Positions 12,695 to 45,736 of a DNA stretch of 64,000 nt are shown piece after piece. This DNA comes from Pseudomonadota bacterium (GTDB taxonomy: Bacteria; Pseudomonadota; Gammaproteobacteria; Steroidobacterales; SZUA-146). The DNA is taken from contig JBCCHD010000001.1 of the NCBI GenBank assembly GCA_039028935.1, forward strand, positions 199,181-263,180, given 5' to 3'. Position 1 is the stretch's first letter, and each line of letters starts with the position of its first letter. A model generated the notes under the pieces. That model did not search any database. It was not told the DNA's origin and was given only the letters and a program-made list of their open reading frames with translations. The translations under genes and the position numbers were made by a program.

Positions 12695-13648
12695 ATGGGT
12701 GAATTCGATTTGATCCGTGATTTTTTTAGCGACTTAGGCGTCGCGCGCGACGATGTCCTCATCGGTGTTGGTGATGACGGCGCGCTGCTTGAGCCACCGA
12801 CGGGCAAACAGCTCGTGAGCGTCATGGACACGCTCGTAGAGTCCATTCACTTTCCTCGTAATGCCCCGGCTCGTTCTGTTGGTCATCGTTGTCTGGCAGT
12901 CAACTTGAGCGATCTTGCCGCCATGGGCGCCGAGCCGGCTTGGGCGAGCCTGAGTTTGTCCGTGCCGAGCATTGATAGCGATTGGTTGGCCGATTTCACC
13001 GCGGGTTTCGCTGAGTGCGCCAAACAACACTCGGTCTCGTTGGTCGGTGGGGATACGGTCAGCGGGCCGCTGGTGGTCACGGTGCAGGTCACCGGTCACG
13101 TCGCGCGCGAACGCTGTGTATTGCGCTCCGGCGCTAAACCCGGCGACCAGCTGTATGTTACCGGCACACTCGGGGACGCGGCGGCCGGACTGCGCGCCAT
13201 GACGCGTGGCAAAGGACACAGCTTTTTAATGGACCGCTTTTTGTATCCCAATGCGCGCGTTGCGTTGGGCAAACGCCTGGGTAGTGTGGCGTCGGCGGCG
13301 ATCGATATTTCCGATGGATTCGGTCAAGATTTGGGTCATCTGCTCAACGCGTCGGGTGTTGGGGCGGAGGTAGCCTTAGAAGAACTGCCGCTGTCCACTG
13401 TGATGAAGAGCGAGTTCTCTGTCGAAGAGGCGCGATATCTAGCGATCAGTGGCGGCGACGATTACGAGTTGTGTATTGCTGTACCGCTTGAACGCATGTC
13501 CGAATTTGAAGAGCACTGTGTGTCCGCATTGGTGCCCAGTCAGCGCGTGGGTGAAGTGGTGGCCACGCCAGGACTTCGTTTCACGCTCAACGGTCAACCG
13601 CACGCTGTGAATGTCGAAGGACACGAGCACTTTCAGGCGGAGCGCTAG
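12695..13648 (+). CDS. thiL: Thiamine-monophosphate kinase
   Basis: 317 residues. ATP-dependent phosphorylation of thiamine monophosphate to the active cofactor thiamine diphosphate; cytoplasmic. Belongs to the PurM/AIR-synthase-like superfamily. Motifs: GVGDDGALLE (N-terminal metal/phosphate site), LAVNLSDLAAMGAEP, SLVGGDTVSG and, later, AIDISDGFGQDLGHL. It starts MGEFDLIRDFF, typical of the family. Order nusB-thiL-pgpA is conserved in gammaproteobacteria; pgpA starts one base after the thiL stop. Confidence 0.96.
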   Translation: MGEFDLIRDFFSDLGVARDDVLIGVGDDGALLEPPTGKQLVSVMDTLVESIHFPRNAPARSVGHRCLAVNLSDLAAMGAEPAWASLSLSVPSIDSDWLADFTAGFAECAKQHSVSLVGGDTVSGPLVVTVQVTGHVARERCVLRSGAKPGDQLYVTGTLGDAAAGLRAMTRGKGHSFLMDRFLYPNARVALGKRLGSVASAAIDISDGFGQDLGHLLNASGVGAEVALEELPLSTVMKSEFSVEEARYLAISGGDDYELCIAVPLERMSEFEEHCVSALVPSQRVGEVVATPGLRFTLNGQPHAVNVEGHEHFQAER

Positions 13649-13649
13649 G

Positions 13650-14147
13650 GTGAGCGGCTCCGACCGCGCCGTGTCGCCGCGCGATGTATTGACCGATCCG
13701 GTGATGCTACTGGCTTTCGGATTCGGTTCAGGGCTTTCCCCTAAAGCGCCCGGTACGGTCGGTACCGTGGTCGGCATTCCGTTTGCACTTATGTTAAGCC
13801 AGTTGCCACTTTGGGCGGAATGGGCTGCCATTTTACTTATGTCAATTGTCGGCGTGTTTATCTGCGGGTACGCCACAAAAAAGCTGGGTGTACACGATCA
13901 TGGCGGCATTGTGTGGGACGAAATTGTGGGCTACGTCATCGCCGTTGCGTTCGTTCCAGACGGCGCTTTTTGGTTGGTTGCAGGCTTCGGGTTTTTCCGG
14001 GTGTTCGACATCATCAAGCCGTGGCCAATCCGCGAATTGGATCACAGTATCCACGGCGGCCTCGGCATTATGCTTGACGACATTGTCGCGGCTGCTTTTG
14101 CCGCGCTGTGTTTGGCGGCCCTCGCGTGGGGGTTACCCCTGATGTAA
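13650..14147 (+). CDS. pgpA: Phosphatidylglycerophosphatase A
   Basis: 165 residues. Inner-membrane phosphatase that dephosphorylates phosphatidylglycerol phosphate to phosphatidylglycerol. Motifs: FGFGSGLSPKAPGTVGT near the N terminus, the acidic HDHGGIVWDEIVG site and FFRVFDIIKPWPI. About three to four hydrophobic segments are visible. I choose the GTG at 13650, directly after the thiL stop and preceded by GGAG at 13640-13643, rather than the in-frame ATG at 13611 that would overlap thiL by 38 bases. The kinase gene begins 20 bases downstream. Confidence 0.93.
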   Translation: MSGSDRAVSPRDVLTDPVMLLAFGFGSGLSPKAPGTVGTVVGIPFALMLSQLPLWAEWAAILLMSIVGVFICGYATKKLGVHDHGGIVWDEIVGYVIAVAFVPDGAFWLVAGFGFFRVFDIIKPWPIRELDHSIHGGLGIMLDDIVAAAFAALCLAALAWGLPLM

Positions 14148-14167: not shown

Positions 14168-15493
14168 ATGTTAGACAAAATTGGCAAGTACATGATCATC
14201 AAAGAAGTGGGTCGTGGAAGCACCGGAAATGTCTATCTGTCACACGATCCGTTCTACGGTCGTGATGTCGCCATCAAGGTGTACAACAATACCGCGCAAA
14301 GCGAAGAAGACGCCGCTGTGTCGCGCAAAATGTTTTTCAACGAAGCCAATATCGTTGGCATGTTGCAGCACCCCAACATTCTCCCGATTTACGACGCCGG
14401 TGAAGAGAACGGCAACTACTACGTGGTTATGGAGCATATCCATGGCGCGCGTACGCTCTCCGCCTATTGCAAACCGGATAATCTTCTGCGCATCAATGAT
14501 GTGGTACAGATCATTTTTAAATGCGCCAAGGCGCTTCACTATTCGGCCAACCGCGGCGTCGTGCACCGAGACATTAAGCCCAGCAATATCATGCTCACCA
14601 CCAACAGTGATGTGCGCATTATCGACTTTGGTATTGCCATTGTGAAAAACGCTGAGCATTCACAGATTCGCGGTATCGCCGGGTCTCCCAGCTACATGTC
14701 ACCCGAGCAAGTGCAGTCTGCCGAGATCACGCAGGTGTCTGACGTCTATTCACTCGGCGCAGTGATGTACGAGCTGCTTACGGGTGTGCGGCCCTTCCGG
14801 GCCTCGAATCTGACGAAGTTGCTTCACCAGATTGTCTACGCCAGTGCGCAACCTATGCACACGATTCGCCCTGAGATTCCGGAGATTCTTGAGGAGATCG
14901 TGGCAAAAGCGATGTACAAAGACCCGGCCAAACGTTTTCAAAGTGGCAAGGAATTTGCCGCGGCACTGACCCGGGCGTTTCAAGAGCTGAAGGACGACGA
15001 AGACCACATTGACAAGCAAGAGCGGTTTGAGCAGCTTCGTCAACTGTCGTTCTTCCATGATTTCTCACACGCTGAAATATGGGAAGTACTGCGCGCCAGC
15101 GATTGGCGTACCTATGGTCGAAGCCAGGAAATCGTGCGAGAGGGAGAGCTCGACGACCGCTTTTACATCATCGTTGACGGCCAGGTGGATGTGAAGCAAG
15201 CCGGCAACGTGGTCGGTTCGCTGCACAAAGGCGATTGCTTTGGTGAAACCAGTTACGTGACGGCGGCACGTCGAACGGCGACGATCAGTGCGCACAACAA
15301 AGTAACGCTTTTGAGAGTCAGCTCAACGTTGCTTGAGCAGGTGTCGACGGCCTGCCAGCTGCATTTTACGAAGACGTTTTTGCGTGCGCTGATCGAACGA
15401 TTGCAACGTGCGGCCCAGCAGGAAGCGACTCAAACGCGGCTTGAGCGGGAGCGCGCGGCGTTGGCTAAAGAAGCGGCGTCCGCCACAAACTAA
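14168..15493 (+). CDS. Ser/Thr protein kinase with C-terminal cyclic-nucleotide-binding domain
   Basis: 441 residues from the ATG at 14168. The N-terminal Hanks-type kinase (about 7-275) has every catalytic element: glycine loop VGRGSTGNVY, Lys37 in VAIK, HRD at 133-135, DFG at 153-155 and SYMSPEQ. After a charged linker, residues about 300-410 form a CRP/PKA-R-like cNMP domain. The phosphate-binding cassette FGETSYVTAARRTAT keeps the Gly-Glu (369-370) and Arg (378/379) that normally hold the cyclic phosphate, so ligand binding is plausible. A helical, charged tail (420-441) follows. No membrane segment is seen. It lies 20 bases after pgpA and is probably co-transcribed. Substrates are unknown. 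A cyclic-nucleotide-gated kinase is an inference from architecture. Confidence 0.9.
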   Translation: MLDKIGKYMIIKEVGRGSTGNVYLSHDPFYGRDVAIKVYNNTAQSEEDAAVSRKMFFNEANIVGMLQHPNILPIYDAGEENGNYYVVMEHIHGARTLSAYCKPDNLLRINDVVQIIFKCAKALHYSANRGVVHRDIKPSNIMLTTNSDVRIIDFGIAIVKNAEHSQIRGIAGSPSYMSPEQVQSAEITQVSDVYSLGAVMYELLTGVRPFRASNLTKLLHQIVYASAQPMHTIRPEIPEILEEIVAKAMYKDPAKRFQSGKEFAAALTRAFQELKDDEDHIDKQERFEQLRQLSFFHDFSHAEIWEVLRASDWRTYGRSQEIVREGELDDRFYIIVDGQVDVKQAGNVVGSLHKGDCFGETSYVTAARRTATISAHNKVTLLRVSSTLLEQVSTACQLHFTKTFLRALIERLQRAAQQEATQTRLERERAALAKEAASATN

Positions 15494-43655: not shown

Positions 43656-43708
43656 CTCGGTTGGGGCGCGAGGCATTCTCGCATGACGCTCCACCGACCA
43701 ACTCATCA

Positions 43709-44956
43709 ATGAACAATGCCGGCATGCTTCGGGTGCTGGTGCTGGACGACGATGCCGCTTTTTCGGCGTCGGTCGAGCAGCGTCTCAGCCAGCTGTGGCC
43801 CGAGCTCTCCTTAGTAGCGCGTAAGTCGACACATTACCGCGACACCTTGTCGCACGATGTGCAACAAGCAAACATTGTGTTTCTGGATCACGAGTTCGAC
43901 CAACGTTCGGGCCTAACGCTGTTGCGTGAACTGCGTGCTGAACGGCGGGCACCGGCCATTATTTTCGTCACCCATAATAGCGATGAACGACTCGCCGTGG
44001 CGGCCATTAAATACGGCGCCGACGACTATCTGCCAAAAGCGACGAGTAGCGCGGAACGTCTCGTGACCACGGTGAAAGAGTGCCTGCGGGCGACGCGCGT
44101 GGTGGCGTCACGTCGACCATCCGGCGCTGCGCGCACACAGCCGGTGACCGGCGTGTTGGTCAAGGGCTATCGATTGATCGATAAAATTGCCATGGGCATG
44201 GGGTCGGTTGTGTACCTGGCGTACAGTGAGTCACGTCGTGAGGACGTCGTGCTCAAAGTGCTGGACGGAGCGTTTGAGTTAGCCGATCAGGACGAAACAT
44301 TCGAGCGTTTTCTCATCGAGATTCAGTCCGCTGCGGAGGTGACACATCCCAATGTGATCCGAATTCACGATGTGGGGGTGGCCGACCACCGCTTATTTAT
44401 TGCCATGGAGTACATCCGGGGTGGAAGTTTGCGTCAGCGCATCGCGCGCGACGGCGCACTCCGTCCGCGCGACGCGCTCGACCTCGCGCTCAACATTGGT
44501 GACGCGCTGGGCGTCATTCACGCGCAGGGCATTCTCCATCGTGACCTAAAGCCGGGCAACATTTTGTTTCGCGACGACGGAACGCCGTGCCTGATCGACT
44601 TCGGTCTTGCCAAGCATGTGCAGCTTGATCAGGAAATCACGCTGCCGGGGCGAATCTACGGTACCCCTTATTACATGAGTCCCGAACAGGGATTGGGCGA
44701 AGAAATCGATGCGCGCAGCGATTTTTACAGTCTCGGAGTGGTGTTATTTGAGGCGCTGACCGGTCGTAAGCCGTTTATGGCCGGCACACCCGTGGCCATG
44801 CTCTATAAGCATCGCTTTGCACCGATTCCCGAAATCAACGACAAAAACAAACAATATCAGCCACTTATCCATTCTCTGATGGCCAAGGATCCCGCCGAAC
44901 GACCCACCTCGGTCGAGGATTTATTGGCGGTACTAAATCACTATAAAAGTCTGTAA
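43709..44956 (+). CDS. Response regulator receiver / Ser-Thr kinase fusion
   Basis: 415 residues from the ATG at 43709 (43724 also possible). Residues about 6-125 are a receiver with all key residues: Asp13-15, phosphoacceptor Asp60 (IVFLDHEF), Thr88 and Lys110. Residues about 142-410 are a complete Hanks kinase: MGMGSVVYLAY loop, Lys173 (VVLKVL), HRD 267-269, DFG 287-289 and YYMSPEQ. No membrane segment. The fusion implies that phosphorelay input switches a Ser/Thr kinase directly. The upstream Hpt protein is the obvious phosphate donor. Kinase substrates could be the neighbouring coiled-coil or OmpA-like proteins, but nothing in the sequence shows it. Confidence 0.9.
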   Translation: MNNAGMLRVLVLDDDAAFSASVEQRLSQLWPELSLVARKSTHYRDTLSHDVQQANIVFLDHEFDQRSGLTLLRELRAERRAPAIIFVTHNSDERLAVAAIKYGADDYLPKATSSAERLVTTVKECLRATRVVASRRPSGAARTQPVTGVLVKGYRLIDKIAMGMGSVVYLAYSESRREDVVLKVLDGAFELADQDETFERFLIEIQSAAEVTHPNVIRIHDVGVADHRLFIAMEYIRGGSLRQRIARDGALRPRDALDLALNIGDALGVIHAQGILHRDLKPGNILFRDDGTPCLIDFGLAKHVQLDQEITLPGRIYGTPYYMSPEQGLGEEIDARSDFYSLGVVLFEALTGRKPFMAGTPVAMLYKHRFAPIPEINDKNKQYQPLIHSLMAKDPAERPTSVEDLLAVLNHYKSL

Positions 44957-45007: not shown

Positions 45008-45736
45008 TTGACTAACACTTCACAACGCACGCGGCTCCGTATTGCACTGCTCGAGGACGACCAGGATCAGGCAGAGTTGGTCAACGCCTGGCTCCAGGCG
45101 GCCGGGCACAGCGTGAACCATTTTTCCTCAAGCCGGGTATTTCTAAGGGAAGTGCTTAGAGATAGCTATGATTTGTTGGTGCTCGATTGGATCGTGCCCG
45201 AGATGGACGGCATAGAGGTGATGCGGCGTGTGCGGGAAAGTGCACGCCACTACACGCCGGTGCTGTTTGTGACGGCAAAAGACACCGAAGACGACGTGGT
45301 CGCTGCGCTCGGGGCGGGCGCCGACGATTACATGGCCAAGCCACTCCGGCAGCGTGAATTTGCCGCGCGTGTGCTGGCGGTCATCCGCCGCGGGCGGGAT
45401 GGCGCGGGCAAGGATGAGCTACCGGATGCGGCGCCGTTTGTGATCGACCTCAAACGCAAGCAAATCGAGCTCAATGACGATGTCATTGAATTAACGCACC
45501 GCGAATTTGATCTCGCTGTGTTTATGTTTCGAAATGCCGGTCGGGTCGTGTCGCGCAGCCACATCCTTGAGAGTATCTGGGGCATGCACGGCGCGGAACT
45601 CAATACCCGCACGGTGGATACGCACATTAGCCGGTTGCGCAAGAAACTGGGCATCAAAGCGGAAAACGGCTGGAAGCTATCCGCCATCTATCAACACGGC
45701 TATCGACTGGAGCGTACCGATACGCTCGAGGCCTGA
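45008..45736 (+). CDS. OmpR/PhoB-family response regulator
   Basis: 242 residues from a TTG at 45008 with AGGGTGG upstream. Receiver (about 10-125): acidic pocket Glu16-Asp17-Asp18, phosphoacceptor Asp60 (LLVLDWIVPEMDG), Thr89 and Lys111. C-terminal winged helix (about 140-238): LTHREFDLAVFMFRNAGRVV, then the recognition-helix region TRTVDTHISRLRKKLG and the wing YQHGYRLE. It should bind DNA as a phosphorylated dimer. No dedicated orthodox kinase is adjacent; the hybrid kinase 3 kb downstream plus the Hpt protein could phosphorylate it. Targets unknown; the inverted repeat just upstream is a candidate autoregulatory site. Confidence 0.93.
   Translation: MTNTSQRTRLRIALLEDDQDQAELVNAWLQAAGHSVNHFSSSRVFLREVLRDSYDLLVLDWIVPEMDGIEVMRRVRESARHYTPVLFVTAKDTEDDVVAALGAGADDYMAKPLRQREFAARVLAVIRRGRDGAGKDELPDAAPFVIDLKRKQIELNDDVIELTHREFDLAVFMFRNAGRVVSRSHILESIWGMHGAELNTRTVDTHISRLRKKLGIKAENGWKLSAIYQHGYRLERTDTLEA

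Follow-up and report, generated by a model that had tools for sequence, protein, structure and literature searches.

A bacterial Ser/Thr kinase carrying its own C-terminal cyclic-nucleotide-binding domain, conserved within an order of Gammaproteobacteria and probably switched by cAMP

The window, by which we mean the whole 64,000-nucleotide stretch of gammaproteobacterial DNA analysed here, holds a complete gene that joins a Ser/Thr kinase to a cyclic-nucleotide-binding (CNB) domain, hereafter STPK-CNB (Table 1). Pfam recognises both parts above its cut-offs, Pkinase at residues 8–258 (E 9.5e-50, 169.9 bits) and cNMP_binding (PF00027) at residues 314–392 (E 9e-14, 51.7 bits against a cut-off of 27.5), confirming the proposal of an initial sequence-only reading that the two share one chain. 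Upstream lies the block ribD-ribE-ribBA-ribH-nusB-thiL, which forms the conserved neighbourhood of the kinase across 80 named loci; one kinase from outside the order (G304, L164) also adjoins a gene of the AIR-synthase family, that of ThiL.

The sequence-only reading had further stressed a link to a lipid-phosphate phosphatase, pgpA, placed 20 bases upstream. That spacing holds in the window, where pgpA ends at 14147 and the kinase starts at 14168, and pgpA adjoins the kinase in 31 of the 80 named loci, as might be expected of a lipid-metabolism kinase working with PgpA. Against this, the kinase comes straight after thiL in 45 of the 75 loci with thiL upstream, across a gap of 140–380 bases that is too short for pgpA. 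Because of this arrangement we regard the adjacency as incidental, reject pgpA as a partner on grounds of synteny, and hold a joint role in lipid metabolism to be improbable in the extreme; the emphasis on the phosphatase falls away.

Table 1. Coordinates of the STPK-CNB gene, its parts and the genes discussed with it (window positions unless a locus is named)
Feature	Location	Strand	Remarks
STPK-CNB gene	14168..15493	+	complete ORF, ATG start, 441 aa, soluble protein; homologues align from residues 1-4
Protein kinase domain (PknB/PknA-like Hanks kinase)	14189..14941	+	residues 8-258; Pfam, PDB sequence match, model compared with PknB
Helical linker, kinase C-lobe to CNB	14945..15040	+	residues 260-291; AlphaFold2 helices 260-277 and 280-291
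Cyclic-nucleotide-binding domain	15107..15343	+	residues 314-392; Pfam, profile against PDB, structure comparison
Phosphate-binding cassette FGETSYVTAARRTAT	15239..15283	+	residues 358-372, including Glu360 and Arg369
Long C-terminal helix, candidate dimer coiled coil	15347..15487	+	residues 394-440; full-length and CNB-only models
pgpA-like gene upstream	13650..14147	+	NCBIfam PRK11068, 164 bits, below cut-off of 226; adjacency not conserved
thiL, conserved upstream neighbour	12695..13648	+	NCBIfam TIGR01379, 312 bits, over cut-off
Soluble class III cyclase-FHA gene	L167:1452-2411	+	also L169; linker Thr invariant, order-wide

The kinase half has a GRGSTG Gly-rich loop, Lys37, Glu59, His-Arg-Asp at 133–135, Asn140 and Asp-Phe-Gly at 153–155, and in a 70-sequence alignment all of these except the Gly-rich loop are invariant, as is the segment 169–182. 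The catalytic residues are thus all present, as first read, and with its Lys, HRD Asp, Asn and DFG Asp the domain is, judged by sequence, a complete Hanks-type kinase domain. Its nearest relatives in a PDB sequence search are PknB, PknA and StkP (StkP, E 3.9e-44), and the modelled kinase superposes on PknB with Z 33.4 and rmsd 1.6 over 254 aligned residues. The full-length AlphaFold2 model from which this comes has a pLDDT of 83.3 and a pTM of 0.73; its activation loop (157–171) and cassette loop (361–368) are of low confidence. While the kinase domain resembles those of PknB, PknA and StkP, the window protein has a cytosolic CNB domain in place of their membrane or PASTA part; the NCBIfam PASTA-kinase model reaches 267.8 bits against a cut-off of 450, matching 7–283 of 563, which places the protein outside the PASTA-kinase (PknB/Stk1) family on this full-model score. 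No NCBIfam model reaches its cut-off on the protein, and the STPK-CNB family is therefore unnamed in NCBIfam. Matches to the anti-phage PADLOC models PD-T4-6 and mad6 stay within the kinase part, reaching to about residue 302, and we consider a defence-system reading unlikely, the generic kinase domain being all that matches; the locus is a conserved riboflavin/nusB/thiL block.

As a fold search with the whole model tested the kinase part alone, we folded and searched the CNB domain separately. The CNB-only model (pLDDT 87.5) has the same layout as in the full-length model, its cassette loop again of low confidence. Its first Foldseek match is cAMP-bound GlxR, and it aligns with 8-pCPT-cGMP-bound PKG I CNB-B (Z 16.1, rmsd 2.1, 119 aligned) and with cAMP-bound Toxoplasma PKA-R (Z 16.1, rmsd 2.2, 130 aligned); in profile searches against the PDB the best matches are likewise ligand-binding CNB domains of PKG and PKA. 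By Pfam score and structure comparison alike, the domain has the CNB (PF00027) fold. Within the phosphate-binding cassette, a close-homologue alignment that includes the window protein shows Glu360 in all 93 sequences and Arg369 in 91 of them. The whole Cys-Phe-Gly-Glu stretch at 357–360 is invariant in this set, an invariance that may partly reflect ascertainment because one of the six search patterns used to gather the close homologues covered CFGE. Distant homologues found by whole-protein searches without the motif nevertheless retain FGE, with Glu360, in 27 of 27 cases and Arg369 in 26 of 27, so that the cassette Glu and Arg noticed at the outset are a feature of the wider family, and the window protein has the pair that marks CNB proteins. 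Fourteen of these 27 distant STPK-CNB homologues (among L119–L140) have DFS in place of DFG, with Lys, HRD and Asp retained.

Two cysteines flank this region, Cys357 immediately ahead of the cassette and Cys396 where the C-terminal helix begins, and their conservation (93/93 and 89/93, both present in most distant homologues) might speak for redox rather than nucleotide control of the kinase. Such control would leave the retention of the cassette Glu and Arg unneeded, and a Cys ahead of FGE also occurs without a known redox role; we consider it very unlikely.

In combining kinase and CNB in one chain, the window protein is like PKG (for example Plasmodium PKG, 4rz7 and 5ezr), and both of its domains match PKG by sequence. 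PKG, however, places several CNB domains before an AGC-like kinase, the order being CNB first and kinase last, whereas the bacterial window protein has a single CNB after a PknB-like kinase. The reversed order proposed at first sight is borne out by the matches themselves: the window protein runs from kinase (8–258) to CNB (314–392), while the matches to Plasmodium PKG run from CNB to kinase, and by its sequence the protein therefore lacks the N-terminal CNB of a PKG. We recognised no pseudosubstrate segment in the window protein, a further difference from PKG. With the PKA holoenzyme it would share a PKA-R-type CNB controlling a Ser/Thr kinase, but PKA uses separate subunits for the two roles and the window protein does not. 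The CNB fold and the long C-terminal helix (394–440), which in the models resembles the CRP dimer helix, are alike in CRP and GlxR, whose output is DNA binding where that of the window protein would be phosphorylation. Through this helix STPK-CNB probably dimerises.

The window's own genome (G000) is that of a kinase-rich gammaproteobacterium: 16 of its 17 Pkinase matches exceed the cut-off, and it has 10 CNB matches, one match of each kind falling in a single ORF. Close relatives of STPK-CNB occupy the 80 named loci at 64–91% identity, all in MAGs and nearly all from Gammaproteobacteria or Proteobacteria, Steroidobacteraceae and Woeseiaceae among them. A relative is carried by 30 of 39 genomes of the same order and by 47 of 275 genomes sampled from the class (E<=1e-90; the match in G200 is partial), where carriers often hold two to four paralogues and the kinase-then-CNB order is common; in a sample of 397 genomes confined to the phylum, the five that match (E<=1e-75) all belong to the same class. 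Judged by these homologues, STPK-CNB is strongly conserved within one order of Gammaproteobacteria, and what computation recovers is an intact kinase and an intact CNB fold and cassette, conserved as one unit. In seven class-mate loci (L150, L152, L153 and L155–L158) two STPK-CNB paralogues flank a small gene group, which includes phosphoglucose isomerase in five of the seven and a paired-CBS-domain protein in five of the seven; these neighbours hint that the role of the family has to do with carbon or energy.

Within the order, the kinase never occurs apart from the other elements of the cyclic-nucleotide system. One set of 30 among the 39 genomes carries the kinase together with Pfam-recognised CNB proteins and a class III cyclase, and all three are missing from the other nine (G006, G013, G014, G020, G026, G027, G033, G037 and G038); class I cyclase was found in 0 of 39. 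The nine negatives represent three families (f5, f12 and f13) in which few kinases are left, and, because they have lost the system wholesale, the co-occurrence amounts to some three events and gives this kinase no special place, CRP-type proteins showing the same pattern. It groups the kinase with the cyclic-nucleotide system within the order, a statement that wholesale loss confounds. Across the class, a class III cyclase accompanies the kinase in 40 of its 47 carrier genomes and is present in 134 of the 228 non-carriers (Fisher p 4.5e-4). Of the seven kinase-bearing genomes without one (E<=1e-6), two have a class I cyclase and five have neither, and the latter five tell against cAMP as a strict rule. 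A cyclase gene adjoins the STPK-CNB gene in one of 130 loci searched: in this class genome (L149:771-5213) the kinase gene is divergently adjacent to a gene for a GAF-GAF-PAS-class III cyclase.

These five genomes, which lack class I and class III cyclases at the thresholds used, could also mean that the CNB is no longer a cAMP switch, having become a dimer or scaffold module or a sensor of another ligand, with the kinase constitutive or regulated by a partner. The modelled C-terminal helix would suit dimerisation, but CNB homologues without ligand tend to lose the cassette Glu and Arg, which here are nearly invariant, and every genome of the order that has the gene also has the cyclic-nucleotide system. 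Although many CRP-fold sensors read other signals, according to the relevant section of one comparative study (PMC2246266), we think loss of the switch possible but doubtful. We prefer cAMP control: carrying its own CNB domain, the kinase is probably cAMP-switched much like PKA and PKG, and we give a probability of roughly 0.6 to its being a Hanks-type Ser/Thr kinase of the cytosol on which cAMP acts in cis through the C-terminal CNB. In the mechanism we envisage, cAMP would fill the CNB, the cassette and helices would rearrange, and the change would reach the kinase via the helical linker (260–291), with the long C-terminal helix forming dimers; the kinase would then phosphorylate itself and further targets, cAMP setting its activity on or off.

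The window's own genome has two class III cyclases. One is a membrane type with CHASE2; the other is soluble, 320 codons long, and ends in an FHA domain (cyclase-FHA). The latter is found in all 30 kinase-bearing genomes of the order, the L174 copy ending at a contig edge inside the FHA domain, and lies beside PEP carboxykinase in both loci scanned (L169, L173). Both metal Asp residues, a Lys-Asp pair and the Arg are present in 30 of 30, while His replaces the transition-state Asn in 25 of 30, a change reported as compatible with activity in Rv1900c by a paper that also gives the Lys-Asp pair as the mark of ATP-specific cyclases (PMC4886424). The order's core cyclase-FHA thus has, by sequence, ATP-type substrate residues in all 30 copies.

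This bears, for the cyclase-FHA only, on whether the ligand could be cGMP. Next to the cassette Arg stands Thr370, which gives the RTA of PKG: the window's cassette reads RRTAT, and Table 1 of Kannan et al. 2007 gives a PKG consensus of GELALLYNDPRTATVIA as against GELALIYGTPRAATVVA for PKA (PMC2246266). The best PDB matches, in sequence and structure, are also to PKG. Position 370 varies, however (Thr in 58, Gln in 16 and Asn in 6 of 93), and with the ATP-type pair fixed in the conserved cyclase-FHA we judge cGMP an unlikely ligand.

FHA domains favour phosphothreonines whose pT+3 position is hydrophobic or acidic. The linker between cyclase and FHA contains an invariant Thr in T-[SRA]-[ML]-[LV] (30/30), and the FHA residues are retained in all 29 complete copies. 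Mycobacterial GarA is described as switched by a phosphorylated ETTS motif to which its own FHA domain binds (PMC5448819). Outside the order, the linker Thr is kept in 21 of 22 cyclase-FHA proteins from kinase-positive genomes and in 28 of 31 from kinase-negative ones; we therefore rejected it as a mark of this kinase, and other kinases may write the phosphate there. Nor does the phyletic pattern single out cyclase-FHA as a specific partner. Among the 275 class genomes, 26 have both genes, 21 the kinase only, 31 cyclase-FHA only and 197 neither (OR 7.9, p 4.9e-9). When each family is represented by a single genome, however, the association fades to OR 2.6 (p 0.077) in the 70 genomes with at least three kinase matches and to OR 1.9 (p 0.37) in the 45 with at least five, kinases being counted among the best nine or so matches per genome. 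Kinase-richness explains much of the association.

Cyclase-FHA remains a plausible, unproven target that would close a feedback loop. By analogy, we tentatively suggest a two-way circuit, itself rather unlikely, in which STPK-CNB phosphorylates the linker Thr, the protein's own FHA domain binds it, and cyclase output changes. The kinase would then write phosphate and read cAMP while cyclase-FHA wrote cAMP and read phosphate, and, were the two partners, second messenger and phosphorylation would regulate one another.

In eukaryotes the classic output of cAMP is a protein kinase, while bacteria use it mostly for transcription through CRP. If our reading is right, a widespread, conserved kinase with a built-in sensor would mean that bacteria have cAMP-to-phosphorylation signalling too, and the window offers one defined gene in which to test it. 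The parts are known: Table 1 of Kannan et al. 2007 lists kinases among the domains joined to 'Other_bacterial' CNB proteins, and the text suggests that CNB domains may act through protein phosphorylation (PMC2246266), a mention that, in the sections read, is made in passing, names no family and describes neither domain order nor residues nor genomic surroundings. A 2024 survey of Planctomycetota counts CNB, in one passage, among the domains common to bacterial and eukaryotic kinases. Text searches gave one passing mention in PMC11032199, no cyclic-nucleotide match in PMC2877116 or PMC6213207 and none relevant in PMC1262709, PMC2176072 or PMC1183210, and in the open-licence literature searched we found no experimental study or characterisation of a bacterial STPK-CNB. 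The bacterial kinase-then-CNB family is unnamed in the libraries used, though not categorically new. Elsewhere in the window, a gene at 43661–44956 (+), whose TTG start codon is uncertain, encodes a REC domain (25–138) fused to a Pkinase domain (170–418), and is followed at 45008–45736 by an ORF that we named by eye as an OmpR-like regulator.
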